Shown here in pieces: positions 23,502-38,849 of a stretch of DNA of 64,000 nucleotides. The DNA comes from Corynebacterium afermentans subsp. afermentans. GTDB lineage: Bacteria; Actinomycetota; Actinomycetes; Mycobacteriales; Mycobacteriaceae. The notes under the pieces were generated by a model. The model saw nothing but the letters and a program-made list of their open reading frames with translations, searched no databases and was not told the origin of the DNA. Every line of letters begins with the position of its first letter. Position 1 is the first letter of the stretch. The position numbers were made by a program, and so were the translations under genes. Where the stretch lies: contig NZ_CP046606.1 of NCBI RefSeq assembly GCF_030408355.1, positions 930,001 to 994,000 on the forward strand, in the 5' to 3' direction.

Positions 23502-23535
23502 TTGACTAGTTCAGTGATCGCTGTATAGTTCAGTG
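23502..23535 (+). promoter_or_regulatory. cmtR promoter with direct-repeat operator
   Basis: TTGACT (23502-23507), 16-bp spacer, TATAGT (23524-23529), 7 nt to the ATG, so the transcript is leaderless. The decamer TAGTTCAGTG occurs at 23507-23516 and 23526-23535, overlapping both hexamers; it is a likely binding site for the CmtR repressor itself. Confidence 0.65.
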
Positions 23536-23536
23536 C

Positions 23537-23896: not shown

Positions 23897-24495
23897 TGCT
23901 CACCACGGTCTTGCAGGCGATAGGCCTGTTCGCAGCTACCAACATCGACGACATCATCGTGCTCTCCCTCTTCTTCGCTCGAGGGGCAGGCCAGAGCGGC
24001 ACCACCGCCCGTATTCTGGCCGGCCAGTACCTCGGATTTGCCGGCATCCTCGTCGCCGCGATCCTTGTGACCATCGGCGCCGGAGCATTTCTGCCCCCGG
24101 CAGCCATTCCATACTTTGGTCTCATCCCGTTGGGCATCGGCCTCTGGGCCGCATGGGAGGCCTGGCGCGGAGACGATGACGACGATGACGACGAGGCCAA
24201 GGTTGCCGGCAAGAAGGTCGGCGTGGGGACCGTCGCAGGCGTCACTTTTGCCAATGGCGGCGACAACATCGGTGTCTACACCCCTGTATTCCTTAGCGTG
24301 GAACCTCTCGCAGTGGTCGCCTACTGTGTTATCTTCCTCGCGCTCGTCGCGGTCCTGGTGGCCCTGGCAAAGTTCGTCGCCACCCGCCCCCCGATCGCGG
24401 AAGTCCTCGAACGCTGGGAGGACATCCTCTTTCCCATCGTTCTCATCGGCCTCGGCATCGTGATCCTCGTCAGCGGCGGAGCCTTCGGGCTCTGA
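23896..24495 (+). CDS. cadD: CadD-family cadmium resistance transporter
   Basis: A 199-residue membrane protein with about five hydrophobic segments, typical of the CadD/LysE-like family. It begins MLTTVLQAIGLFAATNIDDI; the motif FAATNIDDIIVLSLFF and the later FANGGDNIGVYTPVF are family hallmarks. An unusual aspartate run (GDDDDDDDEAK) sits in the central cytoplasmic loop. Together with cmtR it should give inducible Cd2+ tolerance. Confidence 0.88.
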   Translation: MLTTVLQAIGLFAATNIDDIIVLSLFFARGAGQSGTTARILAGQYLGFAGILVAAILVTIGAGAFLPPAAIPYFGLIPLGIGLWAAWEAWRGDDDDDDDEAKVAGKKVGVGTVAGVTFANGGDNIGVYTPVFLSVEPLAVVAYCVIFLALVAVLVALAKFVATRPPIAEVLERWEDILFPIVLIGLGIVILVSGGAFGL

Positions 24496-24547
24496 CGTAG
24501 CGTCAGTGTTCCAAACGGCCCCGACCGGGCGCACCCCTCTCGGTTCA

Positions 24548-24634
24548 GACCCCAACAACTACCCGCAGCCAGTCCTGCGTGATCGCAGCAACAAGACCGC
24601 CATGGAGCGCTGCAAAAACCGCGCCATCAGTTGA
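24548..24634 (+). pseudogene. Possible C-terminal gene fragment
   Basis: In the 400-bp gap after cadD the frame ending at TGA 24632-24634 reads DPNNYPQPVLRDRSNKTAME and then RCKNRAIS, which looks like the end of a real protein with no start upstream. The parent gene is unidentified. The rest of the gap holds the repeats listed next. Confidence 0.25.
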
Positions 24635-24693
24635 ACGAAGCCACAGCCTTTGAGTGCAAGCGCCTCTACTGTTCATCTACTACAGCTGAGACG

Positions 24694-24811
24694 AAGAAAA
24701 ATGACCCCTCCGAACGAGCGGAGTGGGTCATTTTTGTGTTCGCGGCCGTTTTCCTTCGGCTGGCAGGAGGTTTCGTAAAAAGATTGGTACCGTTTCGTGA
24801 AACCCCTGGTC
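24694..24811 (+). repeat. 118-bp terminal repeat with terminator, copy A
   Basis: About nine in ten positions match 36509-36627 in the same orientation. It contains a strong terminator (24697-24735: AAAAATGACCC stem, CTCCG/CGGAG inner stem, TTTTT) and two TTTCGT(G/A)AAA boxes. Similarity between the copies ends sharply at the common TGGTC, suggesting the end of a mobile element. Here the 69-bp repeat follows; at the other copy the tRNA-Arg 3' end follows. Confidence 0.8.
24697..24735. terminator. Bidirectional intrinsic terminator
   Basis: AAAAATGACCC pairs with GGGTCATTTTT around a CTCCG-AACGAG-CGGAG hairpin; T-runs on both strands. Confidence 0.88.
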
Positions 24812-24829
24812 GGGGCTTTTATGAAACCG

Positions 24830-24898
24830 CCTGACCAGTTATAACAGGTCCGCGGCTACACCCCGGTTACACCGGGTTTCGCCTCCGGTTACACGACA
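24830..24898. repeat. 69-bp dispersed repeat, copy 2
   Basis: Direct repeat of 22872-22940, immediately downstream of the gene at 24916-25275. The CCCGGT-TAC-ACCGGG hairpin and the second CCGGTTACA are conserved. Confidence 0.8.
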
Positions 24899-24915
24899 CC
24901 CGACTACTAACGCTG

Positions 24916-25275
24916 CTACCCAGCGGCTTCCTCAGCGGGCACGAGCACCACAAGCGGCAGCGCCCAGTCCTTGTCCCGGTCCCAGTTGAGCGTGAACTCC
25001 TCCTCAATGTCTCGCACCGTGCCCCACGGCAAGTCCTCGCGCTTCAACGCCGCGAGAATGTTGAGGTCAAGAAACCAAGTTCCGGGGTGCTCGTCTTCCC
25101 ACTGCTGAACTTCTTCTTTCGTCGTGAGCCACCGCGGTTCGGCTCCGTTTTCAATGGCTTCGGCAATTCCTTTAGCCCCGCCAAAACCCTTATGCGAGGT
25201 GAGCCATTCGTCCCCGTCTCGGGGCTCGTCACGGTACGCGTAACGGAACCCGTCGTCGTTCAACGCGACGGACAC
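24916..25275 (-). CDS. Hypothetical acidic protein
   Basis: 119 residues from a GTG (VSVALNDDGFRYAYRDEP). It is strongly acidic, soluble and Trp-rich, with no recognised motif. The frame stays open and protein-like for about 15 codons upstream (VARYTECYKFK) but without a usable start codon, so the 5' end may be truncated or the original start mutated. The 69-bp repeat lies 18 bp beyond the stop. Confidence 0.45.
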   Translation of the reverse strand: MSVALNDDGFRYAYRDEPRDGDEWLTSHKGFGGAKGIAEAIENGAEPRWLTTKEEVQQWEDEHPGTWFLDLNILAALKREDLPWGTVRDIEEEFTLNWDRDKDWALPLVVLVPAEEAAG

Positions 25276-25427
25276 CTTGAACTTGTAGCATTCTGTGTAT
25301 CTAGCGACAGTATTCTCAGTGGGACGGTGCGACCAATCATCTGAAGGGGCCGATTTGCACGGGGCGGAGAGGTCGGCCCCACCCTACGATTTTCCGATAC
25401 GTGGCGCGTATCGACAGGCGAGATGGG

Positions 25428-25957
25428 CTATCGAGGCGTTACGCGCCGCGATACCCCATTTTCATCTGTTTCGGACAGTATCACCTTAGAGTCGGCCACG
25501 CTTAGGTCCTCTGTTACCGCATAAATGCACGAATAGCCGTATCGAAGCGGTGTCCCGAATGCATTGGGAAAATCAACGTTCCCGGTCTGTCGGTACACGT
25601 AGGTCTCTTCTGGGCGTTTTCGGCCGAGGTAGAACTCGTCGTCCTCTTCCTCCAACATGTACGCCGAGGAAATTGGGTCTTGAAATACTACCCCCCAGGG
25701 TATTTGGCGTAGGCGGTAACCTCTTCACGGCAGCGCTCGTCTACGAATTGCTTCTCGGCCGCTATCTGCTGACGCACCTGGTACTCCGAAAAGCGCTCGT
25801 ACCCGAGAGCCAGCAGAAGGAGTACAAGGGGAACCGCCACCCATAATTGCCACCTCTTCCACAGCGGATTTCGGGAATCATTTTGATGCTCCAGGATTGG
25901 TCGCATGTGTTCGCTGTAGCGAGGCTTCTCTTGCAACCTCTTCTGTCTTTGGACCAT
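25428..25957 (-). pseudogene. Single-pass membrane protein gene with one frameshift
   Basis: The ATG at 25957 has AGGAG 8 nt upstream. The first part (MVQRQKRLQEKPRYSEH, then the membrane segment LWVAVPLVLLLLALGY and QQIAAEKQFVDERCREEVTA) stops at 25688. The next frame continues in good register (WGVVFQDPISSAYMLEEEDD, NVDFPNAFGTPLRYGYSCIY) to 25428. The break lies in a run of six G (plus-strand CCCCCC near 25691-25696), so a homopolymer indel is inferred. The family is unknown. Confidence 0.55.
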
Positions 25958-26158
25958 CGAAGCGTCTCCTCTCAAACGTGACCAACCTCTGAATCGGATA
26001 CGTGGAACGTACCCCTGAATCTCGAAAATCAAGGAGAAGTAGGAACGTAGGGCACACATTTACTTGGCGCGGCCGGTGGCGCAACTACAGAGTGGGGACT
26101 GGCATTAGCATCACTTCACACTGGCCGCGGAACACCCACCCTGCATATTATGTCGCCA

Positions 26159-26250
26159 TGTTCGACCCCTCCGAGCCGACCGAAGAGGAACTCCTCGCTG
26201 CGCGCGACGTGCCATTAGAAGAACTGCGTGCCAAGGCACAGAAGAGACGA
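26159..26250 (+). pseudogene. 5' fragment of an unidentified gene, truncated at a junction
   Basis: An ATG-started frame reading MFDPSEPTEEELLAARDVPL and EELRAKAQKRR, a plausible acidic-then-basic N-terminus. It loses sense at about 26247, precisely where the opposite-strand terminase gene also loses similarity, so both appear truncated by one recombination or deletion event. Confidence 0.35.
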
Positions 26251-26765
26251 TTTCGTAGATCTCGTACCAGTACACATTCGCCTGCTTAGAAAAGCTCTGG
26301 CTCATGGCGACGAACGGGGACGCGATCGCAGCCCCCGTGGTTGGGTGCTTGCCGAGCAGGCCGAACTTGGTAATCGCCTCCTCGCACTGGATGTAGCGGG
26401 CGAATGCCTGGGCGTAGGCCTCAATCAATCTTGGGGATACGAAGGAGGCAACACCGCGTGCGTCGAGCCAGGCCCAGGTTTCCCGGTAGAGCTCCCCAGC
26501 CAGCACCGGCTGACCATCACGCTGTGTCGCGGACAGGTAGGCGGAAGGTTCGGGCATAGTATTCCCCGTCGAGTACAGCGCCTTCACCCATGTCCACGCC
26601 GTCCAGGCCGAAGGGGTCCAGGTCGGCGGGTTCGAGCAGCCTGGAGGCGGGTTTGCCGACTTCGAGCTTGTCCTTGAGGGGATCGGGTTTCGCGCCGGCG
26701 CGGACGCGTCTGCCGCCGCAGTTGGTACCGTCCTTGGCCGCGAGCCCACCTCCTTCCTGGGTTTG
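26246..26765 (-). pseudogene. Phage P27-family small terminase, frameshifted and truncated
   Basis: The C-terminal frame reads SAYLSATQRDG, RETWAWLDARGVASFVSPRL, FARYIQCEEAITKFGLLGKH and PTTGAAIASPFVAMSQSF, matching P27 small terminase subunits. The N-terminal part is in a different frame (AAKDGTNCGGRRVRAGAKPD, DKLEVGKPASRLLEPADLDP), preceded by AAGGAGGTGGGC but with CTC where a start codon would be. Frames switch near 26555. Sense ends at YEIYEIV (about 26246), short of the normal C-terminus. It is a phage DNA-packaging remnant. Confidence 0.7.
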
Positions 26766-26856
26766 ATAGGTCAGTCAGGGGTTTGATTCGGGACTTTTGT
26801 GCGCGGAGGGCCTAGCCCGCCAGCCTATAGCTTAGGCACTAGAGATTTCATGCCCC

Positions 26857-26880
26857 CTGCGGGGCCTGTAGGCCCCGCAG
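26857..26880. terminator. Stem-loop downstream of the membrane EEP gene
   Basis: A perfect 10-bp stem CTGCGGGGCC/GGCCCCGCAG with a TGTA loop in the 240-bp gap between the terminase remnant and the gene at 27006. No T-run; probably a terminator-like 3' structure. Otherwise I see nothing in this gap. Confidence 0.5.
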
Positions 26881-27005
26881 AGCGTCGAACGGAAGAAAAA
26901 CGACTCAAACCGCCACCGAGAACCTAAGGCGCTCAGAATCGCTTGCAACGCGTTTTATGCTGCGAAAATGATTAGAGGCATCAACTCTAAGCAGTGCTAA
27001 AACAC

Positions 27006-28055
27006 TCACTGAACAGCTACTTGAGTTTTGTAAGCGAGGTGATCGGAGTAACCAATCTGCTGCACTTGACAGGAGTGGGCTGTTATTCCTTGTGTTACGA
27101 AGATATGGTCGATGGGTGATCTTAAAAGGTTGGGCGCACCAGCTGGCCAAGTACCAGTGGGGGTGGTTGAACAGAGCTCTTGCGAATCAATAAGCCTGCC
27201 TCTAGTGGCAAGAGGACCGTGGCGAAGAGTGGCGTTAAAGTCGCCCGCGATTATAAGCGGTTTTTGTATCGAGTTACCAAACTCAACGACACGATTGATG
27301 TCATCCCGCCACTGATTCATAAGTCTAGGCAACGGTGGTGCTGTATGTAGCCCTAGAATCACAGGAAGCCGAGCATCGTCAAACTCGATGGCAACTGTTC
27401 CGAATGATGTTACCGGGCCTCGTGTAAAGTGCGCTGCTCCAAGCCTTTTATTTACTACAACTGACGTGGGGGCGATTTGCCCTGTATAAGTGTTCGGAAG
27501 ACCATCATTACGAGTTTCAAAGAGCTGCCCGTCATATTTTGACGTTTCTATCGCTTCACGAAGCTCATAGCCGGACGTTTCGGGCAAAACAATAATGTCG
27601 GGATCCCATGTACTGACAAGTTGTTGGAAATCGCTGGCGGTCAGCGTTGATCCCGTATTAAACGTAACGACCGTCAGGTTCCCCTCTGTAACGGTGGAAT
27701 GTTGTTGGCCGCTGACCTGATGTGGGATGCCATTCGGAGCGAACAAAAATCCTGCTCCCGCGACAATCCACACTAAACAAGAAGTTAGGGCAAGTCTTGA
27801 CCATCGCCTCCGCCAACCGACACCGGTAGCACACCCGCCAAGGAGTAGTATCACCAGCCCCAGTGCTTGCGGGAAAGCTAGCACCTGAGCGAAGGGAAGG
27901 TAGACGCTCAACGATCTGGCAACCCCAAACTGTGGGAATAGCCCCACAATACAGGAAAAGCAGCCCAACACAATCCCGCAAACAAACATAGCCTTACGCC
28001 AGAGTAATCCTTTGGAACCACTCTGGTGCAAGGCTTCCCAATTGTCACGGCTCAT
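27006..28055 (-). CDS. Membrane-anchored endonuclease/exonuclease/phosphatase-fold protein
   Basis: About 349 residues. Three N-terminal membrane segments (LWRKAMFVCGIVLGCFSCIV, FPQALGLVILLLGG, LALTSCLVWIVAGAGFLF) precede an extracytoplasmic EEP domain: LTVVTFNTG, DPDIIVLPETSG, KPLIIAGDFNATLRHGPL, SPIDHIFVT and GYSDHLAYKTQV. These give the Asn, Glu, Asp-x-Asn and Asp-His residues of the metal-dependent phosphoesterase. It could cleave a nucleic acid, lipid or sugar phosphate outside the membrane. The start at ATG 28055 avoids overlap with the upstream gene. The region is less GC-rich than the core genome, suggesting transfer. Confidence 0.75.
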   Translation of the reverse strand: MSRDNWEALHQSGSKGLLWRKAMFVCGIVLGCFSCIVGLFPQFGVARSLSVYLPFAQVLAFPQALGLVILLLGGCATGVGWRRRWSRLALTSCLVWIVAGAGFLFAPNGIPHQVSGQQHSTVTEGNLTVVTFNTGSTLTASDFQQLVSTWDPDIIVLPETSGYELREAIETSKYDGQLFETRNDGLPNTYTGQIAPTSVVVNKRLGAAHFTRGPVTSFGTVAIEFDDARLPVILGLHTAPPLPRLMNQWRDDINRVVEFGNSIQKPLIIAGDFNATLRHGPLATRGRLIDSQELCSTTPTGTWPAGAPNLLRSPIDHIFVTQGITAHSCQVQQIGYSDHLAYKTQVAVQ

Positions 28056-28069
28056 TGGACTCTGGTCAG

Positions 28070-28708
28070 CTACCGTAACGTCACCAACCGGTTGTTGCGT
28101 GCAAGCCATTCACAACGGTTGGAGGCGCTATCATAGGTGCGATAGCTTTGACCAACTGATCGACCAGTTGCGTTGTTAGCGAGATCCATCTCCTTATCAG
28201 GGCCAGAAGATTCAGCTTCATGGCGATCACCGAACCCCTGAGCTTCTCCCACGCCCATGTCGATGGTCATTCTGGCACTCCAATAGCAATGGCGGTAAGC
28301 GTCACCCTTACCCAGAGAAAGAGAATACTCGTCGAACTTGGCCCGGGATCTTGCAAGGGCATCATCTGATGCCGATTTAGCGGATGCGCATTTACCAAAG
28401 TTCCAGGGTTGCGCACAGAACCTAGCTTCTGCACCGTTCATCCCACCAGGATAGTATCCGTAAGTGGTGAACTCATCCGGTCGGACAGGTTGCGACTCGC
28501 CGACGTCAAGAGCGTCAAGGCTGAACCTCTGAAGCTGGTCTGTGGTCAAGTAGTAACTTGCTGAAGTGGGTTGCGTGTTAGCATCTTGTGTTTCTTCAGC
28601 CCATGCTGGTGTTGTGCCGAGGCCGAACGTGAGAGCCAAGGCGGTGATGACAATCGGAGTTCGGAGCGTGCGTTTTAACGTAGGATCTTTTGCTTGAGAT
28701 TGCACCAT
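28070..28708 (-). CDS. Secreted DUF6973-like protein
   Basis: 212 residues with a signal peptide (RTPIVITALALTFGLGTTPA, cleavage after AWA). The mature part has GDAYRHCYWSARMTIDMGVG, GFGDRHEAESSGPDKEMDLA and NNATGRSVGQSYRTYD. The A-x-RHC-YW, HE and DxxNN..G pattern is that of the DUF6973-type secreted or toxin-associated domain; the conserved His, Glu and Asp suggest a metal or catalytic site. The activity is not established. It precedes the membrane EEP gene by 14 bp on the same strand, so they form a pair. Confidence 0.65.
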   Translation of the reverse strand: MVQSQAKDPTLKRTLRTPIVITALALTFGLGTTPAWAEETQDANTQPTSASYYLTTDQLQRFSLDALDVGESQPVRPDEFTTYGYYPGGMNGAEARFCAQPWNFGKCASAKSASDDALARSRAKFDEYSLSLGKGDAYRHCYWSARMTIDMGVGEAQGFGDRHEAESSGPDKEMDLANNATGRSVGQSYRTYDSASNRCEWLARNNRLVTLR

Positions 28709-28776
28709 GACAAAACCGTAACACAGTATCTGCCAGATCGCACCCCTATTGACAATGTGTGGTGAGCCACACTTCG

Positions 28777-29082
28777 CTAATACGTGTAGACGCGTGGGGC
28801 TTGCCGCCACCGGTCACCATCCACCGCGGACTGCCTAGAGTAGCAGGGCTTACACAACGCTCTAAGGTTGCTCTCATCATGCGTACCACCCTTCGAGAGT
28901 GGTTGGATGTGATGCACCTCGGCCGCTGGCGTGACCCGCCCTGCTTTCTGGCAGTCCTCACACAACGGGTGGGCCGCGAGATACCGCTTGCGTACCTGCT
29001 TCCACGCCTTGTCGTAGCGGCGGTTAATCTTTGGGTCGCGCTGGTACTTGCGATAGCGTGCAGTCTCAACTTTCGCGTGCAC
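28777..29082 (-). CDS. Phage-type HNH endonuclease
   Basis: 101 residues from a GTG: HPLCEDCQKAGRVTPAAEVH, HIQPLSKGGTHDESNLRALC and KPCYSRQS give the HNH core with two CxxC pairs. HNH proteins of this type are encoded next to terminases and assist phage DNA packaging. Upstream in the same frame lies a further zinc-ribbon-like stretch (PCRYPGCPQLTHERYCSVH), but it has no start codon and is preceded by an in-frame TAG near 29148. The 5' end may therefore be decayed. Confidence 0.75.
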   Translation of the reverse strand: MHAKVETARYRKYQRDPKINRRYDKAWKQVRKRYLAAHPLCEDCQKAGRVTPAAEVHHIQPLSKGGTHDESNLRALCKPCYSRQSAVDGDRWRQAPRVYTY

Positions 29083-29295
29083 CGAGCAGTAGCGCTCGTG
29101 GGTGAGCTGCGGGCAGCCGGGATACCGGCACGGCTTTGCTGGACACTTCTACATTGTTCACCACCCTTCGCATGCATGGCAAAGCCCTCAACAGAATCCT
29201 ACTGGGGGCTTGACCTGATTACCGACTGCTTACCACAGTAGAGGGTGCAAGCGTCGAAATTATCCGCTCTTTGCGATACCCGCAAACGCGTGGGT

Positions 29296-29754
29296 TCATC
29301 CGTAGAGTGCGGAGGCGAGTCTGCGTACCGCGCGAGACTTCTTGGCGTGAGCGGTGGTGCGCTCCACAAAGAACCGGTCAGCCACCGCCCGCAACCGATC
29401 CTCTTGGGAGACATCGTCGGCAGCGAAAAAGAACGTGTCCAACACGAACCTGTCATCCTCGCCCAATGTGCCCCATGAGGACAGGAACCAGTCCCTGTAC
29501 TCCCGTGCCTGGGCGTAGCGCTGCTGGTAAGCATCCACCCGGTCCGTGCCAGCGGCGATGCTGTCTTCACTAGCCTTGGGGTTTCGCACCGGCGGCATCC
29601 CTTCCGGGGCGGGGATGTTGAACCAGTAGAGTTTCTCGGCTTTGTCCTTGATGGCCTGGTCGGTGGTCTGAAGGATGTGCTGCATGGCCACGTAGTCCTC
29701 CAATGCGGCCACCGTCGCACGATAGGTGTCAATGTATTTGCTCATCACGTGCAT
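29296..29754 (-). CDS. DUF1492-like phage protein
   Basis: 152 residues starting MHVMSKYIDTYRATVAALED, with AAGGAAG upstream. The central part is helical; the C-terminus (EDRLRAVADRFFVERTTAHA, KKSRAVRRLASALYG) looks like the sigma-4/ArpU-type helix-turn-helix end seen in DUF1492 phage proteins thought to act in late gene control. It starts 6 bp downstream of the helicase remnant's stop codon. Confidence 0.6.
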   Translation of the reverse strand: MHVMSKYIDTYRATVAALEDYVAMQHILQTTDQAIKDKAEKLYWFNIPAPEGMPPVRNPKASEDSIAAGTDRVDAYQQRYAQAREYRDWFLSSWGTLGEDDRFVLDTFFFAADDVSQEDRLRAVADRFFVERTTAHAKKSRAVRRLASALYG

Positions 29755-29759
29755 GAGGG

Positions 29760-30356
29760 TTACTTCCTTTCGGGGTTGAGGGTGGTGGCCACGGCCTGGA
29801 TCAGCGCGGCCTGCGTGGTGTTCTTCGCTTCCAGGGCTGCCAGGACTTGCTCGTCGATGGTGCCGGCGGTGGCGAGGTGGGTGATGGTGACGGGTTGGGT
29901 TTGGCCTTGCCGGTGCAGCCGAGCGTTCGTCTGCTGGTAAAGCTCCAAGCTCCAGGTGAGCGAAAACCAGACCAGCAGGTGCCCACCGGATTGGAGGTTC
30001 AAGTCGTGCTCCGCGCTGGCGGGGTGGATCAACGCCAGTGGAATGTCGCCGGCGTTCCACGCGGTGAAGTCGTCGGAGGTGGTCAACATACGTCCCTGCG
30101 GGAAGCGCTGACAGATTCGCTGGGCGTCGTGTTTGTGCCGGTACGCCACCAGAAGCGGCTGCCCGTTCGCAGCCTCAACAAGGTCCTCCAAGGCGTCGAG
30201 CTTGCGGGCGTGAACCTCCACGCTCTCCCCGGCGTCGTCATAAACCGCGCCGGAGGCCAACTGCATGAGCTTGCCCGAGAGGGCTGCGGCGTTGACGGCA
30301 TCCACCACCTGCCCGTCCAGGTCGAGCACCATGTCACGCACCATCTGGTCGTACAC
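29760..30356 (-). pseudogene. C-terminal part of a phage SNF2/DEAD helicase
   Basis: The frame reads MVRDMVLDLDGQVVDAVNAA, GQPLLVAYRHKHDAQRICQR, HDLNLQSGGHLLVWFSLTWS and ELYQQTNARLHRQGQTQPVT, i.e. motifs IV-VI of phage SNF2-type helicases (the last is the Q..R.HR.GQ box). The whole N-terminal ATPase lobe with Walker A and B is missing. The upstream sequence at 30357 belongs to the restriction endonuclease remnant, so the helicase was truncated by a deletion or insertion there. Confidence 0.7.
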
Positions 30357-31318
30357 CCGTCGCTCGGTGCAGGAAGTTGTCCCCGTAGAGGAGTTCGGTG
30401 GCGCGGTTGGTGAATGCTGCTGACTTATCGGACTGGAGGCCGAAATTGAGTTGGTTCGTGACGTTCACAAACTGAAGAGATTCCTGAATGCTGTAGTCGA
30501 AAAGTGACTTCAGAAGCCAAATGAGAGAACGATACGGCCGGCTGATGGTGTTTGCTGGGTCGCGTTTCACGGTCTCGGTAAACAGGGTTAGAAGCGCCAT
30601 ATCAGTAATAACGAAAACATCAAAGGTGTTTTCGTCCAGGCGCGGCGATTGACCAATAGTTCTCCATTCGGCCACAATGACCAACGGGGTTTGCTCTTCG
30701 ATTCCGTTGCGGATAATTTCTTCTACCGCCTCGATAAGTTCTGCGCGCTTTTCAATCATCTTGGATTTATTGGACCACACGATGTCCTGTGGCGTTTGGA
30801 GCGCATCAACGATGATTCTCCGGAGCGTTTTCATCTGCTCTACGCCGTATTACCTGGCAATTGAGAAGGCAAGTTGCTCAATTGAGGCGGGGCGGATAAC
30901 CAATTCGCAGAGCTGGTCTTCGCGGTTCCGGTGTGCCGAACCTGATGTTGGAACTACCACGAGTTTGATTTCAAACGCGCTCCTGTGGTGCCCACTTTCA
31001 TCGACCACCACGACATCAGAACCGTTCGGGACATCTCTGGTGAACTTTCTATACTCAGAATAAATCCCCCTCAAACTGCCACCGCGCAGTTGCTGGGTCT
31101 GCATTGATGATTACGGGCCATGGCGTGGGAACGTGCTCTGTTTCAATTTCTCCGCCAGCACCGACCGTTGCGGAAACAACTGGGATGTCTAGGCCGCGCT
31201 CAAGGTGGATATAGTTCGCTAGCGACAGGGGGAACGCATTGGTGAATATGTTCTTCCCTAAAAATTTCCGGGACGTTGAATCGTGGCTTGCGTTCTGCAT
31301 TCCGTACAAGAGGCTCAC
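30334..31318 (-). pseudogene. HindVP-family type II restriction endonuclease, inactivated
   Basis: A GTG at 31318 (GGAG 6 nt upstream) starts LLYGMQNASHDSTSRKFLGK and NIFTNAFPLSLANYI, the N-terminal block of HindVP-like enzymes. The catalytic region GSDVVVVDESGHHRSAFEIK gives D..ExK, followed by ELVIRPASIEQLAFSI. The gene is broken twice: a frameshift in a GGGGG run near 31065, and an in-frame TAA at about 30851 before YGVEQMKTLRRIIVDALQTP. The C-terminus ends against the helicase remnant. No methyltransferase gene adjoins it. Confidence 0.7.
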
Positions 31319-31444
31319 TAGGTGCTCCGTCGTCGTGGGCGTGTTCTTCTTCTCCTCGGGAAGTATGACACGGGTAATAGGAAAAACAGGTGCAATTATC
31401 GGGTCGATGCTATGACGAAATGAGACTTGAGCGAACCGTATCAA

Positions 31445-31745
31445 GTTATAGGATTGGTCTATTTCGCAGAAAACAAGGTCTCATCATTCGTGCTTTGTGG
31501 TGATATATCTCACATACATCCCCGATAGCGGGCGAATGTAAAAGAAAATCACCCCCGGACGGAGTAAGTAAAAAGGTGGCGAAAGTGAGAGATGTGTCGA
31601 CATGTCGACGGACTTTCGAACATCCCGACGTTTTGTCGTCGTCACATAGCCTCAACCTATTGGAACCCTTTCACCCCGGACCCCTACTTTTCGGGGTGTG
31701 CCACCATTTTTAGCCATGGAAACAAACGCAAATCAACACCTGCAA
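31445..31745. other. Intergenic stretch with a perfect 14-bp palindrome
   Basis: About 300 bp, AT-richer than its surroundings, without a convincing gene. It contains the perfect palindrome GTCGACATGTCGAC (31596-31609) and, downstream of the HTH gene, a stem CACCCC/GGGGTG near 31674-31700 that may terminate it. Confidence 0.4.
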
Positions 31746-32144
31746 TTACCCCCGTTCGTGCTCCAGCGGCGGGAAGTCGTAGTCGCCTCCAAGCGGCCTG
31801 CGGTCTGTCTTCGCGGCAACCTGCCGCGGCCACAGTGGCGCTTGGGTGGCGTACTCGACGCGCTGCACGAGCCACGTCGCCGGCCACTTGGAACCGCTCA
31901 GCCATGTGCTCAAGGCCGAGTGCGACACGCCGCACCTGTTGGCGAAGTCGCTTTGCGAGCTCGCCCACCCGTTAGCAATGAACCGCTCAATAGTCCTCGT
32001 CAGGTTGTCGCGAAGCGTCCATGCACGCGCATAGGCCTCCGGCAGGCCGGTGGGGTCTATATCCGGCCAGTCGGGGAAAGCGTCTCTGGGTGCAAGTGGG
32101 AAAGCCACGAGGTTGACGCTACTGGCTCTGCGCTTGCGAAGCAC
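31746..32144 (-). CDS. Small helix-turn-helix protein
   Basis: 132 residues (GTG start; GTG at 32108 is an alternative). The segment SQSDFANRCGVSHSALSTWL, followed by SGSKWPATWLVQRVEYAT, is a Cro/XRE-like helix-turn-helix near residues 60-105. It is divergent from the recombinase operon across about 50 bp, so it is the natural candidate for its regulator. Confidence 0.65.
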   Translation of the reverse strand: MLRKRRASSVNLVAFPLAPRDAFPDWPDIDPTGLPEAYARAWTLRDNLTRTIERFIANGWASSQSDFANRCGVSHSALSTWLSGSKWPATWLVQRVEYATQAPLWPRQVAAKTDRRPLGGDYDFPPLEHERG

Positions 32145-32194
32145 TCCGGGGGTAGTGGGGTTATGCGCTACCTGGTACGAGGTGGGTGGCCGGC

Positions 32195-33331
32195 ATGCCT
32201 GTAAACCCTCGCGTGGAGAAAGCAGTGCAGCAAGCGCTGTTCAAGCATGTCTCCGGCGCGCACGCACACCGCTTGCGTGACTTTGTCACCCAAACCGTTT
32301 CGTCCTATGTCGCGGTGAGCGGGTTTGGTGATATTTCGCCCTACGGTCCGACGTCCTTGCCAAACATGACCTCGCTCGTGGTTCAAGCAAGCGACCGCGT
32401 GTATCTTCAGGGGCGAGACCTCACCCCGGAGTCGGTCTTTGCGGTGGAGAATATCCACGCGGTTGTGCCTGAAAACATGCACGCCTACTACGCGAAGCGT
32501 CTTGCTCTTGTGCGAATCGCTGAGTTCAGCCTCGGGTATTCGCTAGACATTGAGGGTTCCGATGACGAGCCGAAGAAGGGGTATGCGAGGCCGTATCTGC
32601 CGGAAGACTTCCCGAAAATTCGCCAATGGGCGGTTGCACGTACGACGCAGTACAGCCGTGAGCTCACAGAAGGAGCACTCGCACTCTGTCTCGGTGCCGG
32701 GTTGATGGGCAAACAGGCCGTGACGGTGAAAGCCGGAGACATCCGCGAGGACAACAACGGTGTCGTGTGGGTGCCGCAAGGGCATGGTGAGTCGCCGCGT
32801 CCGGTGGCTACCGTCTTCACCCAGGCGCTTTTGGAACTTCGGGGCAGGCGGGAACCCGACCAGCTCCTACTGGGCGGCAAAGAAAAACCAGCTTCGCTAC
32901 AGACTCTCAACGTCGGAAGAGAGTTCAAAGTGTTTCCGGCTCGACTGCGCATGACCTGGTACGTGGCGGTGGCCGCGACCACAAACGCAGACGTTGCGGC
33001 CACCGCGCTAGGCACAAAGTTTTTGTACCCCTACCTGAAGTTCTCCCGGAAAGACGGTGTACGCCCCGACCCCATAGAAGATCATGCTCGCGAGTTGGTC
33101 GACCCATTCACGAACTGGCCGGCATTGCGAGCTGACCAGCGCTGGCAACCGACCCCGTCACCCTCGGCGCCTGTCGCGAAAGAAACGGGTTCTGGGGACA
33201 AGGCCAAGCGCATGAATGCGGCCGACGTACCTGTTCAGCAGCAAGAACAGTACCCCCGCTCGGGTGTAGCTGACGAACAGGCGCGGAAACAACGTTCCAT
33301 GTTTGAAGTTATCGACGGAGGTAAGAAATGA
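32195..33331 (+). CDS. Tyrosine-recombinase-like protein 1 (degenerate)
   Basis: About 378 residues from the ATG at 32195 (AGGTGG 9 nt upstream; GTG 32186 is an alternative). After an N-terminal domain of about 150 residues comes a recombinase-fold-like half: TEGALALCLGAGLMGKQAVT resembles the Arg-I helix region but has Met where the catalytic Arg should be; PARLRMTWYVAVAATTNADV resembles box II; LGTKFLYPYLKFSR has a Tyr near the expected nucleophile. It is probably a catalytically weak or structural partner. The stop overlaps the next start (ATGA). Confidence 0.55.
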   Translation: MPVNPRVEKAVQQALFKHVSGAHAHRLRDFVTQTVSSYVAVSGFGDISPYGPTSLPNMTSLVVQASDRVYLQGRDLTPESVFAVENIHAVVPENMHAYYAKRLALVRIAEFSLGYSLDIEGSDDEPKKGYARPYLPEDFPKIRQWAVARTTQYSRELTEGALALCLGAGLMGKQAVTVKAGDIREDNNGVVWVPQGHGESPRPVATVFTQALLELRGRREPDQLLLGGKEKPASLQTLNVGREFKVFPARLRMTWYVAVAATTNADVAATALGTKFLYPYLKFSRKDGVRPDPIEDHARELVDPFTNWPALRADQRWQPTPSPSAPVAKETGSGDKAKRMNAADVPVQQQEQYPRSGVADEQARKQRSMFEVIDGGKK

Positions 33332-34509
33332 GTGCCGTGACGTGCAAACATGTCTCATTCCTTATGCGTCGCAAGCGTTTGTCCATGCTCCGCGCTGTCG
33401 CGGTAGCGACAGCATGGACCTTGACGACCTTAAGGTGTCGACCCAGGCTGGTGTTCAATTCCACCACCACGGAACAAGACCAGGCGACCACCACCTGCCT
33501 GGTCGGACAGGGCAAATTGAACATGAACACCGTCAAACGCACCGACCCGTTCGAGGTTATTGCTGCCTACACACCAAAGGTTGTCACCGAGGAGCGCTGG
33601 AGCGAACTTTCCGGTTTCGTCCGTACTGCCGTTGGCAACACTGTCGAGGACACCTGGACCGCAGACCGCACCCGCAATGCGCTGCGACTGGTGACAAAAC
33701 TCTGCAACTTCGTTCTTCACACTGGCCGCGACTTGTCGGTCGAGGCTGTCTTCACCGACGACATGGTGTCTGCCTTCTCGCACAACGAACTGGCCTCCGA
33801 CACCACCCATGTCCGCGGCTCGTCTCGCGCTGTGCTTCGCAAGGTCGGTCTCGCCAACAACCCGGACTTCGACGCTCCGCGTCTTCGCCCCGAGTACGGC
33901 TCCGACTCTGGCTCGGCTCCGTACACCGAGGACGAGGTCACGACACTGCGCGTCTGGGCGAACGGTGAGCGCACTGAGGAGCGTCGCCGTCAGGCGCACC
34001 TGCTGCTGGCGTTGACCCTTGGCGCTGGCCTTCGCTCCTGCGAGGTTGCGGGGCTCACCGCACGCGACGTGTCGCAGGACAGCCTGGGGCTGACGCTTCT
34101 GGCCTCCGGCTACCGGGGCGCAGCCGAGCGCGTCGTGCCTGTCGAGCACGAGTGGTCAGGCGCCATTGCCGAGGCAGTAGAACTTGCTGCGGGCGAGGAC
34201 TCCTGGCTTTTCCGTCCCCGTCGCACGACGGCCGGCCACGGCACGGTTGCAACCTTTACCAAGCGCTCGTTCCACCCAACCGAAGCGGTAGACGTGGCGC
34301 GGGCCAGAACGACCTGGGTGGTCAACCAGATCCACAAGGGCGTGCCGGAGACCGCGGTGCTTCAGGCCGCAGGACTCCACGACTTGCAGCACTACAGGCG
34401 GTTCATTTCCGCGCCTCGTCATAGCGAGGACCAGGTCCGAGCACTGCTGCACGGCACTCGCGCAAGCGAAACACAGAGCGGTCTGACACTCATTCAGGGC
34501 GCACTCTAA
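33328..34509 (+). CDS. Tyrosine-recombinase-like protein 2
   Basis: 393 residues from the ATG at 33328, which has GGAGG 6 nt upstream and overlaps the previous stop codon. However, the first 65 residues are odd in composition, and ATG 33523 (MNTVKRTDPF) may be the true start. The C-terminal half matches tyrosine recombinases: LLALTLGAGLRSCEVAGLTA holds the Arg-I position; VARARTTWVVNQIHKGVPET and AVLQAAGLHDLQHYRRFIS give the box-II Arg and a candidate nucleophile Tyr, although the box-II His is replaced. A perfect hairpin (GCTGTCGC-GGTA-GCGACAGC, 33394-33413) lies between the two candidate starts. Confidence 0.6.
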   Translation: MSAVTCKHVSFLMRRKRLSMLRAVAVATAWTLTTLRCRPRLVFNSTTTEQDQATTTCLVGQGKLNMNTVKRTDPFEVIAAYTPKVVTEERWSELSGFVRTAVGNTVEDTWTADRTRNALRLVTKLCNFVLHTGRDLSVEAVFTDDMVSAFSHNELASDTTHVRGSSRAVLRKVGLANNPDFDAPRLRPEYGSDSGSAPYTEDEVTTLRVWANGERTEERRRQAHLLLALTLGAGLRSCEVAGLTARDVSQDSLGLTLLASGYRGAAERVVPVEHEWSGAIAEAVELAAGEDSWLFRPRRTTAGHGTVATFTKRSFHPTEAVDVARARTTWVVNQIHKGVPETAVLQAAGLHDLQHYRRFISAPRHSEDQVRALLHGTRASETQSGLTLIQGAL

Positions 34510-34590
34510 ACCAACCACATTTCCCCTGGTGGCGACACCAGGTGGGTCTCTTATTGCCAAAAACAACCCACACGAGGAGGTGACAACGAC

Positions 34591-36405
34591 ATGGCGAACC
34601 TGTACCCGAAAACGCAAGAGAACTTCTCTCAACTCAAGTACGCCGCCGACCTCGTTGACGCCTCCGGTGTAGTTGAACTGGTAGAGCGCTGGCGTATTGA
34701 GGACGGGCTCCAAGTAGGCCGCGGTGGTCGCCCGCCTTACGTGACCATTCGCACCGCCATTGTGTTGTGGGTCCACATGGCGCTGACCAAGCGCGCGCAA
34801 CTGGTCGCCCGCATGTCCGAGGTAGTTGCCTTCGGCATGAAGCCCTACATGCGCGACTACTTCTCGCTCGTCAACGAGGACGTTGACCTCTCCACCGTCG
34901 AGGGTCGAATGGACTACTACGACGAGTGGTACCACCGCATTTGGCGTGGGCTTGACCGCGTGCGGGCGACTATGGAGCCGTACCCGCAGGTCTCCCGTCA
35001 CGGCCGCCACACCGTCGACGAGTGGCTTGAGTTCATGGACCTCTTTGGCCTGGACTCGAAGAAAACCTCCAAGAAGGGCTATGAGCCAACCGAGGAAGAA
35101 TTGCTCGCAGAAAAACGCATGGCGCGCTGCGACGAGTTCTCCAACCGCCTGCTGTGGGCGACGGTCGAGAAGTTCGGCGACAAACTCGGCACCTGGAACG
35201 GCGACGTGGCCGTCGACGGCACTGCGTTCAAAGTCTCTGCCAAGGGCAACCCGAACAAGCAGGACATGCTGGCGGGCAAGGTGCCAGGCCACCGCAAGGT
35301 AGCGTCCACGCCGACGCTCGGCAACTACTCGAAGGGCCGCGACGACCACGACGGCGACGCGAAGGGTGCCAAGGGCGACGCCATGTGGGCCGGCGAAGCG
35401 ACCTTCGCCACCATGGAGGGCGACGGCATAGGCAAAGAAGGCGGTCTGCCGTCGCTTATTCTCGGCATGTCGTTCCACCGCCCCGGTGCGAAGCCGTGGC
35501 AGCGTGCGCTTCGTTCGCTGACGAACGTGCTTGAGCGCCCGGAACTACCGCGTGGCCGCTTCCTTGCTGACCGTCTCTACCTTCCCGGTCAAAAGGCCGA
35601 GAACCTCCAGGTACCGCTTCGCAAAGTAGGCTACGACCTTATTGGCGACTACAAGAAGAACGAGCTGGGGCTCCAGACCGAGCTCGCCTCCGGCGCGGTC
35701 GTTGTGGACGGGCAACTCTACTGCCCGGTAATGAAGGCGCGTCAGCGCCTGGTCAACGCCACCGCAGACTTTCAGAACGGGGCCATTGAGGAAAACGAGT
35801 ACTACGCCCTATTGGAAGAGCGGAAGAAACTCCAACTTGTCCCGCTCGGCAAGCCTGTCAAGGGCGACGGCAAGCAGCGTTTCCAGTGCCCTGCACGCTC
35901 CAAAACCGCAAAGGTGACCTGCCCGCTTGTTCCGCGCTCGCAGGAGAAGCACCCGAACCGCCCGAAGGAGCGGTTGCTCGAAAGCGAAGTGCCGACCTCC
36001 GGCATGTGCGGTTCCGTATGTTCGCAGACCTCTATTACCGTGCAGAACACTCCGGAAGACGGTGCCAAGTTCCTGAGCCAGGGTGCTCCATACGGCACGA
36101 AAGAGTGGCAACAGCAGTACCACCGCCGAAATACCATTGAGTCGCGCAACGACCGTGTGAAGTCTTCTCGCCACCAGGGCCACGGCGACCCGACCATGCG
36201 CCTTATGCGTGGCTGGGCCGCGCAAGCCATTTCGGCTGTCATGTCCGCCGTCGCAGCCAATATTGGTCTGCTTTCTGCGGAGTCTCGCTGGCGCTTCCCG
36301 AAGAAGCCCACGCCTCCCACGACCCCTCCGGACGGGCGCAAGACCCGCGGACGCGAGCGGGAGGGGGCGCAGGCGAACCCGAACGCCCCACCACTCGCGG
36401 CATAG
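34591..36405 (+). CDS. Large DDE transposase-like protein
   Basis: 604 residues, intact, with GAGGAGG 8 nt upstream. Candidate DDE residues are Asp in GDVAVDGTAFKV (about residue 208), Asp in RGRFLADRLYLPGQ (about 327) and Glu in YHRRNTIESRNDRVKSS (about 515). The N-terminal segment PPYVTIRTAIVLWVHMALTK recalls the DUF772-type start of IS1182/IS4-like transposases. The tail is Pro/Gly/Arg-rich. The CTGGTG-CGA-type hairpin at 34525-34542 separates it from the recombinase genes. A single DDE transposase in an operon with two tyrosine-recombinase-like proteins is unusual. Confidence 0.65.
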   Translation: MANLYPKTQENFSQLKYAADLVDASGVVELVERWRIEDGLQVGRGGRPPYVTIRTAIVLWVHMALTKRAQLVARMSEVVAFGMKPYMRDYFSLVNEDVDLSTVEGRMDYYDEWYHRIWRGLDRVRATMEPYPQVSRHGRHTVDEWLEFMDLFGLDSKKTSKKGYEPTEEELLAEKRMARCDEFSNRLLWATVEKFGDKLGTWNGDVAVDGTAFKVSAKGNPNKQDMLAGKVPGHRKVASTPTLGNYSKGRDDHDGDAKGAKGDAMWAGEATFATMEGDGIGKEGGLPSLILGMSFHRPGAKPWQRALRSLTNVLERPELPRGRFLADRLYLPGQKAENLQVPLRKVGYDLIGDYKKNELGLQTELASGAVVVDGQLYCPVMKARQRLVNATADFQNGAIEENEYYALLEERKKLQLVPLGKPVKGDGKQRFQCPARSKTAKVTCPLVPRSQEKHPNRPKERLLESEVPTSGMCGSVCSQTSITVQNTPEDGAKFLSQGAPYGTKEWQQQYHRRNTIESRNDRVKSSRHQGHGDPTMRLMRGWAAQAISAVMSAVAANIGLLSAESRWRFPKKPTPPTTPPDGRKTRGREREGAQANPNAPPLAA

Positions 36406-36408
36406 CCC

Positions 36409-36466
36409 GACCAAGGCCACCGGCTGGTCCTCACACAACGAGGACGAAGCCCGTGGCCTAGAGGTC
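36409..36466. other. Long nested stem-loop after the transposase gene
   Basis: Three coaxial stems: GACC (36409-36412)/GGTC (36463-36466), GGCCACCGGC (36415-36424)/GCCCGTGGCC (36449-36458) with one mismatch, and GTCCTC (36427-36432)/GAGGAC (36440-36445) closing a 7-nt loop. There is no T-run. It begins 3 bp after the transposase stop codon. It could be an RNA, a recombinase-recognised hairpin at the element end, or a simple 3' stabiliser. Confidence 0.6.
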
Positions 36467-36508
36467 GTGGGCGAGTGCCGAAATTCGGCTCAAAACGGCG
36501 CTCACGCA

Positions 36509-36627
36509 AAGAAAAATGACCCCTCCGAACGAACGGAGCGGGTCATTTTTGTGTTCGCGGCCGTTTTCCTTCGGCCGGCGCGGGGTTTCGTGAAAAGATT
36601 GGAACAGTTTCGTGAAACCCCCTGGTC
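36509..36627 (+). repeat. 119-bp terminal repeat with terminator, copy B
   Basis: Counterpart of 24694-24811. It holds the terminator (36512-36550) and two TTTCGTGAAA boxes 21 bp apart inside a GGGGTTTC...GAAACCCC imperfect palindrome, then stops at TGGTC, three bases before the tRNA-end sequence. It is the probable right terminus of the recombinase/transposase element. Confidence 0.8.
36512..36550. terminator. Bidirectional intrinsic terminator
   Basis: AAAAATGACCC/GGGTCATTTTT stem with an inner CTCCG-AACGAA-CGGAG hairpin; T-runs on both strands. Confidence 0.88.
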
Positions 36628-36629
36628 AA

Positions 36630-36645
36630 GTGGTGTCCCCGACAG
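36630..36645. repeat. 16-bp direct repeat of the tRNA-Arg 3' end
   Basis: GTGGTGTCCCCGACAG is identical to 37170-37185, where it forms the 3' end of tRNA-Arg. The two copies abut the IS481-type remnant exactly, so it is best read as that element's target duplication. An integrase attachment-site duplication is the alternative. Confidence 0.8.
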
Positions 36646-37169
36646 TGTCTGAAGTCACGACATATTTGACGGGGTGTGCCTGCGGAAGGCGTTGTGATCC
36701 TTGACAGGTCAGTCGCGTCATTGTTGACACTTAGGGTTACTTCAGTCGTGTCGGTGATGTTTGACTGGTGAGTCGGGACATGTTTGACACTATGAACAGT
36801 CCTAACCGCAACATCGCCATCGTCAGAGCCGTCAGAGATCAAGGCGGCACACCCACCAGCGTCGCCAAACGCTTCGGCATCTCACGGCAACGCGTCCACC
36901 AGATCCTCAACGCCTACGACGCAGGCGGCGCCGAAGCAATCGCACCGAAATCACGCGCCCCTCACACCCACCCGCACGCCGTGCCGGAAGCACTACGCAA
37001 CGACATCATCACCGCCCGCGACTACCAAAAGGCCTACTGGAAACACGGCGACCCACCACTGCCCCCCCCCCGAATGAACAAAACCGGCACCCCAGAACAA
37101 AAACAACTGGGATGCCGGTCCGTCCAGCATGTCGCGACTCATGCGTCAAGCATGACGCGACTCATGACA
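36646..37169. mobile_element. Internally deleted IS481-family element (524 bp)
   Basis: The ends are related inverted repeats beginning TGT: TGTCTGAAGTCACGACATAT on the left and, read inward, TGTCATGAGTCGCGTCATGC on the right, both followed by TTGACG. Subterminal repeats with GAGTCGGGACATGTTTGACA lie near the left end. It carries only the 5' part of the transposase gene and a hairpin (CCGGCACCCCAG/CTGGGATGCCGG) near the right end. It is flanked by 16-bp direct repeats. Confidence 0.7.
36792..37060 (+). pseudogene. IS481-type transposase, 5' fragment
   Basis: The frame from MNSPNRNIAIVRAVRDQG through TPTSVAKRFGISRQRVHQIL and DAGGAEAIAPKSRAPHT is the N-terminal helix-turn-helix of IS481 transposases. 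The DDE domain is absent: sequence similarity ends near 37020 and the frame runs through a C-run into the 3' end of the element. Confidence 0.75.
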
Positions 37170-37170
37170 G

Positions 37171-37247
37171 TGGTGTCCCCGACAGGATTCGAACCTGCGA
37201 CCTTCGGTACCGGAAACCGATGCTCTAATCCACTGAGCTACGGAGAC
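37171..37247 (-). tRNA. tRNA-Arg (anticodon CCG)
   Basis: Complete cloverleaf of 77 nt including encoded CCA. The acceptor GTCTCCG pairs with CGGGGAC; the D-arm is AGCTCAGTGGATTAGAGC; the anticodon stem TCGGT/ACCGA encloses TTCCGGT with anticodon CCG; the T-arm contains GGTTCGAATCC. A TAATCT box lies just upstream at 37258-37263. Its 3' end is the anchor of the accessory island. Confidence 0.95.
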
Positions 37248-37463: not shown

Positions 37464-38849
37464 GGGTTAAACGACAAAAAGTGTGTCTGATTCAGCGTGT
37501 CGTGGGGGTTAGATTTGGCCTTTTTGGATGCCGATTGAGTGTGTGTAGTTGGTGTCGATAGCGTTGTCGTAGAGGGCTGGTCGTCCGGTTTCGTGGTCGG
37601 CTTCGTTCTCGTTTCGGGTCAGGGTGGATACTTTGGCGAGTTGGCCCTGGCCCCAGTCGGACTGACTGGCGATTCGTACTGGATCGTCAGGCAGTTCCGT
37701 TTTCAAATAGAGCCACCAATCCAGCATGCGGCGTTGTCGTTCACCTGATCTGCCGCGGTGTGTTCTGGCGAGCAGTTTGAGCTGGGCGTTGATGCCGCCT
37801 TCCAGGCTGTTGGTGGTGGATTTGATCCACTCTGGTTGAAGTACTGCTTTTGGCGGGTTGAGGTAGACAAACAGCATCTCGGACCGCCAAAGATGGTTGA
37901 GGCTGTTGTATGCCTTGCGCACGTTGTGATGCGTCCACACGCGGGTCCATGCACCGGTTTTGGGATCTTTGACCAGGGTTTTCTCGTCCATCCATGACCG
38001 GTAGAGCGTGGAGAACTCGTGCAGCTGCGCACCCCATGCAGCGGCTTCATCCAGCGTGGTGATCCGGGTCAGCTTCAGCGCAAGTCGGTAGATGGTGCGC
38101 CCGGCATCGGTGCGTGGGTTACTGGTGGTGTAGCGGCGTACCACGCGTTGGGCGTGGACGAGGCAGCGTTGAATTTTCGTAGTCGGCCAGCACTTTTTGA
38201 TCGCGCTGTATGCGCCTTGGCCGCCGTCGATGACGGCGATGAGTGGGGCTTCGATGCGCTCAAGCAGCAGTTGGTAGTCGCGGGTGGTTTCGTGTTTGCA
38301 CCAGTGCCAGGCAATCACGTGGTCGATCGTCGCCGCGACGATCAAGCAGCCGCCAGCGGTGTAGGTGCCGTCAAGGAAGATCTGGTCGTAGACCCGCTTG
38401 TCGTGGCCGGCGGTGGGGTCAGGCACATCAACGAACCAGAACGGTTCGAATCGACGTTGCATCGTGCGCGGTGAGCACCCCACACGGCGGGCAACGGTAT
38501 CGAGGCTGGCGCCGGTGGTGAGGTGGTCGATGAAGACGGTGAACGCCGCCGCGTTGGTGATGTCGCTTCTGCGTTTCACGCTGGAGGCGCCGCATCGTTT
38601 GCAGCGCCACCTGGTGGTGCCTTTGCTAGTGGTGCCGTTTCGTTTCATTTCTCCGCCGCAGTGGCAGCGTGGTTGGTTCTTTGACATTGCGACACCACAC
38701 CACGCCGCACATAGCACATCACGGCAGCCACACCGAGGATTGAACGCTCGAGACCTAAATATATGCCCCCGAAGCATATATTTCCCTGAAACCTACAGGT
38801 CAAACCCTGAAAATCGTCGATTCCAGACACACTTTTTGTCGTTTAACCC
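37464..38849. mobile_element. IS1249-like insertion sequence (1386 bp), intact
   Basis: Perfect 26-bp terminal inverted repeats (37464-37489 and 38824-38849, starting GGGTTAAACGAC). It is flanked by the 8-bp target duplication TACTTCAC (37456-37463 and 38850-38857). It holds one full-length transposase gene. Identity of ends, duplication and open gene indicate a recent, probably functional insertion. Confidence 0.92.
37509..38687 (-). CDS. IS1249-type (IS256-related) transposase
   Basis: 392 residues from the ATG at 38687. An N-terminal zinc ribbon (PRCHCGGEMKRNG, RWRCKRCGASS) is followed by a helix-turn-helix (DTVARRVGCSPRTMQRRF). The mutator-type DDE core includes QIFLDGTYTAGGCLIVA, LIAVIDGGQGAYSAIKKCWP, KIQRCLVHAQRVVRRYTTSN and, with the Glu, STTNSLEGGINAQLK. 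Length and motifs fit a functional enzyme. Confidence 0.88.
   Translation of the reverse strand: MSKNQPRCHCGGEMKRNGTTSKGTTRWRCKRCGASSVKRRSDITNAAAFTVFIDHLTTGASLDTVARRVGCSPRTMQRRFEPFWFVDVPDPTAGHDKRVYDQIFLDGTYTAGGCLIVAATIDHVIAWHWCKHETTRDYQLLLERIEAPLIAVIDGGQGAYSAIKKCWPTTKIQRCLVHAQRVVRRYTTSNPRTDAGRTIYRLALKLTRITTLDEAAAWGAQLHEFSTLYRSWMDEKTLVKDPKTGAWTRVWTHHNVRKAYNSLNHLWRSEMLFVYLNPPKAVLQPEWIKSTTNSLEGGINAQLKLLARTHRGRSGERQRRMLDWWLYLKTELPDDPVRIASQSDWGQGQLAKVSTLTRNENEADHETGRPALYDNAIDTNYTHSIGIQKGQI

Follow-up and report, generated by a model that had tools for sequence, protein, structure and literature searches.

The choice of safe insertion sites by transposons is understood mainly from Tn7, which enters at glmS, a fixed distance past a conserved essential gene, in one orientation and with a 5-bp target duplication; the ends of Tn7-group elements start with TG. 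Several tyrosine-recombinase-fold genes in a row are found in RIT elements and Tn554, and TnpI and TnpS are cointegrate resolvases of Tn3-family transposons. The recombinases of RIT elements and Tn554 perform the chemistry, according to the accessible part of PMC8138268. The closest precedent for the present case is the Tn7-like Tn6022, which, in the available portion of its description (PMC10293859), pairs a DDE (Asp-Asp-Glu) transposase with TnsF, an inactivated tyrosine-recombinase protein with N-terminal zinc fingers; Tsy is named alongside it. Here we analyse a 64,000-nucleotide stretch (the window) of the 2.38-Mb genome of Corynebacterium afermentans subsp. afermentans (contig NZ_CP046606.1, positions 930,001 to 994,000), which contains a transposon with two genes for tyrosine-recombinase-fold proteins (YR1 and YR2), a gene for a DDE transposase, and a divergent helix-turn-helix (HTH) gene. 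We consider it probable from the sequence that this is a target-specific transposon, in which the DDE protein would move the DNA, the defunct recombinases would select the site, and the HTH protein would control the operon.

The transposon spans window positions 24812–36622 (11,811 bp), the gene trio being its right-hand module, and is bounded by the inverted repeats GGGGCTTTTATGAAAC / GGGGGTTTCACGAAAC and by a 5-bp target duplication, TGGTC:

24807–24811: left copy of the 5-bp target duplication TGGTC
24812–24829, plus strand: left terminal inverted repeat GGGGCTTTTATGAAACCG, matching the inverted right end at 14/18 positions
31746–32144, minus strand: divergent HTH regulator (Pfam Phage_CI_repr, barely over the cut-off)
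32186–33331, plus strand: YR1, tyrosine-recombinase-fold protein with Met at the Arg-I position and Phe at the Tyr position
33328–34509, plus strand: YR2, tyrosine-recombinase-fold protein with both Arg present, both His lost and Phe at the Tyr position
34591–36405, plus strand: DDE transposase of an unnamed family, 604 amino acids (aa), D209-D327-E517 with R513 and K524
36512–36550 (about), plus strand: terminator-like stem-loop (z -4.2)
36586–36622, minus strand: right end, comprising the terminal inverted repeat (36605–36622) and two TTTCGTGAAA motifs at 36586 and 36608
36623–36627: right copy of the 5-bp target duplication TGGTC
36630–36645: copy of the tRNA-Arg 3' end, identical to 37170–37185, where the tRNA gene started before a later 0.5-kb insertion
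37171–37247, minus strand: tRNA-Arg(CCG), the target gene

The trio had been singled out in the original prediction, made from the letters alone, as an intact, tightly spaced operon under a divergent HTH gene, and this description stands: all four open reading frames (ORFs) are open, YR1 and YR2 overlap by 4 bp, and 81 bp (34510–34590) separate YR2 from the DDE gene. The stem-loop noted behind the DDE gene was recovered as well; a hairpin proposed for the 81-bp gap does not clearly exceed shuffled sequence (z -1.4, with 22 of 200 shuffled versions scoring equally well). The limits given at the time, 31746–36627, are too narrow, the duplication and the inverted repeat placing the beginning of the element at 24812. 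The terminal repeat then noticed is present but is actually the right inverted repeat of the 11.8-kb element, and the trio, described as the only fully intact large genes, is intact but shares the element with open cargo ORFs of 367 and 246 aa. The prediction had missed the targeting of a tRNA gene, the duplicated 5 bp, the cargo and how widely such elements occur.

A neighbourhood search for co-occurrence and defined ends, suggested together with the prediction, gave a positive answer on both counts, with the trio in order in other species and the ends mapped. The DDE ORF reaches 540 aa or more in 23 loci, that of the window among them; two YR ORFs lie directly upstream on the same strand in 18 of these, one in three, and none is in place in two. 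Since the same order recurs in other species, the trio is not a chance assembly. HTH relatives were detected in 16 of 25 extended loci; in Pro-type elements and in G184 the HTH match sits between both YR genes and not before them. The body of YR1 (window 32156–33092) has 54% protein identity to its counterpart in locus L090 (C. wankanglinii), while the HTH, YR2 and DDE proteins exceed 90%, so that at the sequence level it looks like an exchanged block.

In many of the 37 Corynebacterium regions examined, the DDE gene is followed by a tRNA gene on the opposite strand with its 3' end toward the element. In most tRNA-linked regions the right end, GAAACCCCC or, in the Pro group, AAACCGTC, lies 12 bp short of the acceptor stem, and the intervening bases vary; in the window the same 12 bp precede the acceptor stem of tRNA-Arg(CCG), with the later 0.5-kb insertion now in between. 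This constant spacing made a strict end test possible, in which the 5 bp past the right end must recur upstream, directly in front of the right-end sequence in inverted orientation, with the 12-bp spacing fixed and at least 12/18 inverted-repeat matches. The test was passed by 14 of 24 tRNA loci, compared with 206 of 10,000 random pseudo-anchors in the control, and the predicted site was the best or tied-best upstream inverted-repeat match in 13 of the 24, a count in which the window locus was anchored on the wrong copy of the tRNA end. The 14 mapped elements are 3.6 to 29.7 kb long, and their duplications comprise 13 different 5-mers, which indicates separate insertions, although the loci are related elements. 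Target duplication and terminal repeats argue for DDE transposition rather than tyrosine recombination. A looser end scan over 13 spacings had been abandoned in favour of the fixed 12-bp test because its background was too high (101/500). A left end at the ACCCCCGGA motif (window about 31551), an idea derived from a 5.4-kb block common to both G178 copies, was ruled out, as the duplication and the inverted repeat place the left end further out.

The 23 full-length loci comprise 16 at tRNA genes (Arg-CCT, Arg-CCG, Leu-CAA, Pro-GGG and Pro-CGG), three at glnA (L081, L096, L110), two that reach a contig edge (L097, L102) and two unassigned (L095, L100). With partial copies counted, seven loci adjoin glnA, 7 bp past the stop codon in six and 8 bp past it in L110; the glutamine synthetase gene was recognised by Pfam in one locus and through common sequence in the others. 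L081 and L096 show a plausible duplication with a 12/18 repeat, for which no control was run. On a FastTree phylogeny of 33 DDE proteins, targets group by clade, and the three glnA members (support 1.0) nest in the Corynebacterium tRNA-targeting group under midpoint rooting; we infer that one subclade switched its target from tRNA to glnA.

A natural unoccupied site was found in G070, where the same contig holds a second copy of the tRNA-Leu 3' flank, ...TCGAGACAACAACACAGCGTGCCCC, equal to the two flanks of the element minus one repeat, with one mismatch in the nearest 25 bp and more beyond. The window's spacer TGGTCAAG is present at the same tRNA in G159 behind a different right end and is therefore host sequence. 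Insertions also stack at one spot, as indicated by the right end of an older copy, left of the window element, that abuts the same TGGTC, and by CTTAA preceding two candidate left ends in G078. The 0.5-kb insertion beside the window tRNA (36646–37169) contains a partial IS481-like transposase gene and is flanked by 16-bp copies of the tRNA-Arg 3' end; next to the same tRNA, G067 (L159) has a similar sequence and G060 (L153) a less similar one. A sequence resembling GATGTCTCGAGACAACA is common to the tRNA 3' flanks of L121, L085, L086 and L088, which do not all belong to the same tRNA gene; it may be a terminator or a trace of some other element.

The D, D and E residues initially considered plausible in the 604-aa protein proved to be conserved: among 29 relatives, D209, R513, E517 and K524 were found in all 29 and D327 in 28, spaced as in the Y-R-E-K signature of IS4-type enzymes. 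Nevertheless, the protein stayed under every Pfam, NCBIfam and PHROGs cut-off or reporting limit, and eight locus relatives and two further homologues were under the Pfam and NCBIfam cut-offs too. Its nearest family matches, IS1182 / DDE_Tnp_1_6, with which it has a signature of Y-R-E-K type in common, were very weak (E about 0.007 to 0.26), far under the curated cut-offs, and those of the IS1182, IS4 and IS5 families were not reached. A comparison of the DDE profile with solved structures returned two matches only, both with E >1; no match to the protein was obtained in phage records, and no Tn3-type match among the scanned window ORFs. Unlike IS1182 / DDE_Tnp_1_6, the window element combines several genes with cargo, and unlike IS1182, IS4 and IS5 its ends enclose 11.8 kb, not the transposase gene alone.

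The recombinase fold of both partner proteins, as originally predicted, was corroborated by the match of a 21-sequence YR2 profile to XerA (4a8e; E=1.8e-11) and by a profile-profile match of YR1 to YR2 (probability 99.6%). In the alignment of YR2 to XerA the nucleophile Tyr falls on Phe, and the Met at the Arg-I position of YR1 was confirmed. A survey of 38 YRs from 19 loci showed that the HxxR His, the second His and the Lys are kept in none of them and the Tyr is absent in 31, while the second Arg is kept in 37 and the first in 21. With His and Lys lost throughout and Tyr in most proteins, catalysis is not what the YR family conserves, with a possible exception in the Pro clade. Both window proteins appear, as judged from the alignments, to be without the nucleophile Tyr and both catalytic His. 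The suggested role of recombinase 1 as a non-catalytic partner fits these data, but recombinase 2 also seems to have lost the same residues. The full catalytic set of the RIT/Tn554 type, both His and Tyr, was found in 0/38 YRs; what was found beside the DDE transposase, as in TnsF, is a recombinase fold without catalytic residues, the Tyr of 7/38 YRs excepted.

The distribution of the family was assessed at several levels. Among 201 Corynebacterium genomes, matches were obtained for the DDE protein in 49, YR1 in 27 and YR2 in 42, counts that extend to E of 0.001 and include fragments and related recombinases. At the level of the order the DDE profile matched 10 out of 298 sampled genomes, and at that of the phylum 19 out of 396, with the window genome counted in both. 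Of the 27 other matching genomes, 15 were examined as distant Actinomycetota: a tRNA gene (Leu, Ser, Arg or Met) faces the DDE gene in 14 of these 15 loci, 116–258 bp from the DDE ORF in 13 and further away in L231, and L228 stops at a contig edge; a YR match lies upstream of the DDE gene in 11 of the 15. A DDE relative is also encoded on six Streptomyces plasmids, two of which were inspected and have the order HTH (minus strand), one YR, DDE; in two named plasmid records inspected, the YR and DDE genes are annotated as 'hypothetical protein'. The arrangement of a divergent HTH gene, one or two YR genes and a DDE gene is found repeatedly, in Corynebacterium as well as in other Actinomycetota. 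In the Streptomyces plasmids L232 and L233, a conserved hypothetical protein of ~180 aa, 56% identical between both, is encoded before the HTH gene, and that of L232 has no Pfam match.

The following scheme of transposition could be proposed. The DDE protein would join the inverted-repeat ends to the target and leave the 5-bp duplication, a chemistry suggested by the ends, the duplication and the residues read from the sequence. Insertion takes place at a fixed position just past the tRNA 3' end with the transposase end adjacent, so the tRNA gene stays intact. The YRs would no longer recombine DNA, since their catalytic residues are lost; both probably act as target selectors that bind the tRNA gene end, a binding common among integrases of the fold, and bring the transposase there. 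The HTH protein presumably regulates the operon, and the YRs may instead have roles other than target selection.

Several observations weigh against this scheme. The aligned Tyr is kept in 7/38 YRs, all of them first YRs of the Pro clade, and Tyr stands at the aligned position in 2 of 12 further relatives, the alignment around this position being short. G070, G073, G096 at Arg-CCT, and G152 fit only with a different register or spacing of the ends, and the left end was not found in six of the 24 tRNA loci (G021, G059, G157, G067, G159, G122). In the distant loci, an end test over 26 offsets and without a control gave candidates in 3 of 14, with other spacings, and no tRNA was found in the 13 kb retrieved for the two inspected Streptomyces plasmid copies.

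Alternatively, the YRs could have a structural function within the transposase complex and bind the ends of the element, with the target read by the DDE or HTH protein. The conservation of the YR genes with the DDE gene whatever the target agrees with this idea, but the YR fold is that of tRNA-gene-end readers, and the related protein TnsF is a proven selector in the available text of PMC10293859; we regard a purely structural role as unlikely. Decidedly unlikely, too, is that the YRs were or are cointegrate resolvases and that target choice falls to the DDE protein alone: in the Pro clade the first YRs do retain both Arg and Tyr, but the absence of Tyr from most of the family and of both His from all 38 proteins runs counter to such an activity.

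More familiar would be an integrative element of the ordinary tRNA-targeting kind, which relies on its tyrosine recombinases for movement and carries the DDE gene as a passenger insertion sequence, since tRNA 3' ends are frequent sites for integrases of the YR fold (PMC4383910, in the part available) and both Arg are present in YR2. However, the DDE gene lies within an element that the duplication and inverted repeats enclose in full, the YR catalytic residues are lost, and the DDE gene is conserved together with the YRs. Moreover, unlike in elements of tyrosine integrases, the far end has no duplicated tRNA 3' end: in 22 of 23 sequences no repeat of it occurs in the 11 kb upstream, or in the part of them retrieved, and the sole exception is the 0.5-kb insertion beside the window tRNA. 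This very improbable explanation is already largely refuted by the element ends. As to the joint transposition pathway originally predicted, the proteins do belong together (two YRs with the DDE gene in 18/23 loci), but an active part for tyrosine recombination receives no support.

Membership in the Tn7 group, with TnsC or TniQ partners acting from elsewhere in the genome, is scarcely credible in spite of the Tn7-like 5-bp duplication, cargo, fixed orientation and fixed target by a conserved gene, because a scan for P-loop ORFs of 100 aa or more was negative in the window element and in four of six other complete elements (the exceptions being G189, beside an IstA-like ORF, and G016, not identified), no rve/TnsB match was obtained for the window DDE protein, eight locus relatives and two further homologues, and the ends start with GGGG, not TG. 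In the window element, the P-loop scan of these ORFs and Pfam scans of window ORFs detected no TnsC-like ATPase; a TniQ search matched 0/9 genomes, its control search being equally silent.

The target-specific DDE transposon favoured here shares with Tn7 a fixed conserved site, one orientation and a 5-bp duplication (14/24 tRNA loci), and differs from it in the transposase, in the selectors and in that no ATPase was seen in the window element; on the features tested, the family works like Tn7 yet is not a member. RIT elements and Tn554, in turn, are set apart by the DDE protein, inverted-repeat ends and 5-bp duplication found here. The original prediction cited these two as lacking a DDE enzyme, a list that was incomplete, given that Tn6022 with TnsF already combines both kinds of protein (PMC10293859, as far as its text was accessible). 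Within the same limits of that source, the window element resembles Tn6022 in DDE transposition with target duplication, in cargo and in an inactivated tyrosine-recombinase protein beside the element genes, and is distinguished by a DDE protein of unrelated type, the presence of an HTH gene and of one or two YRs, targets at tRNA or glnA 3' flanks, and the fact that no TnsC-like gene was seen within its limits. The selector role is established for TnsF (PMC10293859) and is predicted from sequence for the window YRs. The principle of a pseudo-integrase as selector is already known (Faure et al.), and what differs here is the transposase, the targets and, as far as tested, the partners. TnRErm46 (PMC6794481, available in part) is an IS481 transposon and was set aside as unrelated. 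The family was not found described in the literature searched, whose coverage excluded preprints and most subscription papers.

It seems rather more plausible than otherwise that these elements form a separate, actinobacteria-wide class of targeted transposons, which would have reached the Tn7 strategy independently with an orphan DDE transposase and one or two pseudo-integrases as readers of tRNA genes, or of glnA in a single branch, without an AAA+ ATPase or guide RNA, and could be re-aimed by pseudo-integrase exchange. Should the pseudo-integrases be address readers, the recruitment of inactivated integrases as selectors would have occurred at least twice, and with different transposases. 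Such a class would also account for some tRNA-linked islands in which no tRNA end is duplicated, and might offer a compact site-specific insertion system. With precise ends, the 5-bp duplication, an unoccupied site in nature and targets of two classes, the question can be put to the test at once.

The left part of the window element is occupied by decayed genes of phage type and by part of a HindVP-type restriction gene:

24812–31700: cargo, partly decayed
26111–26749, minus strand: terminase small-subunit-like
27006–28109, minus strand: Exo_endo_phos, 367 aa, open
28070–28810, minus strand: DUF6973, 246 aa, open
28777–29082, minus strand: HNH
30334–30834, minus strand: HindVP-type restriction gene fragment
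31055–31444, minus strand: weak, possible second HindVP-type piece

Among the few elements whose cargo was looked at, those of G198 and G184 each contain a type III restriction-modification pair. Left of the window element, a cadmium-transporter-like ORF (23533–24806; Pfam Cad) lies beside the right end of the older copy, whose left end was not found, and may be cargo of that copy. On the other side, past the tRNA gene, an intact IS1249-family transposase ORF occupies 37509–38777 on the minus strand (NCBIfam NF033544).

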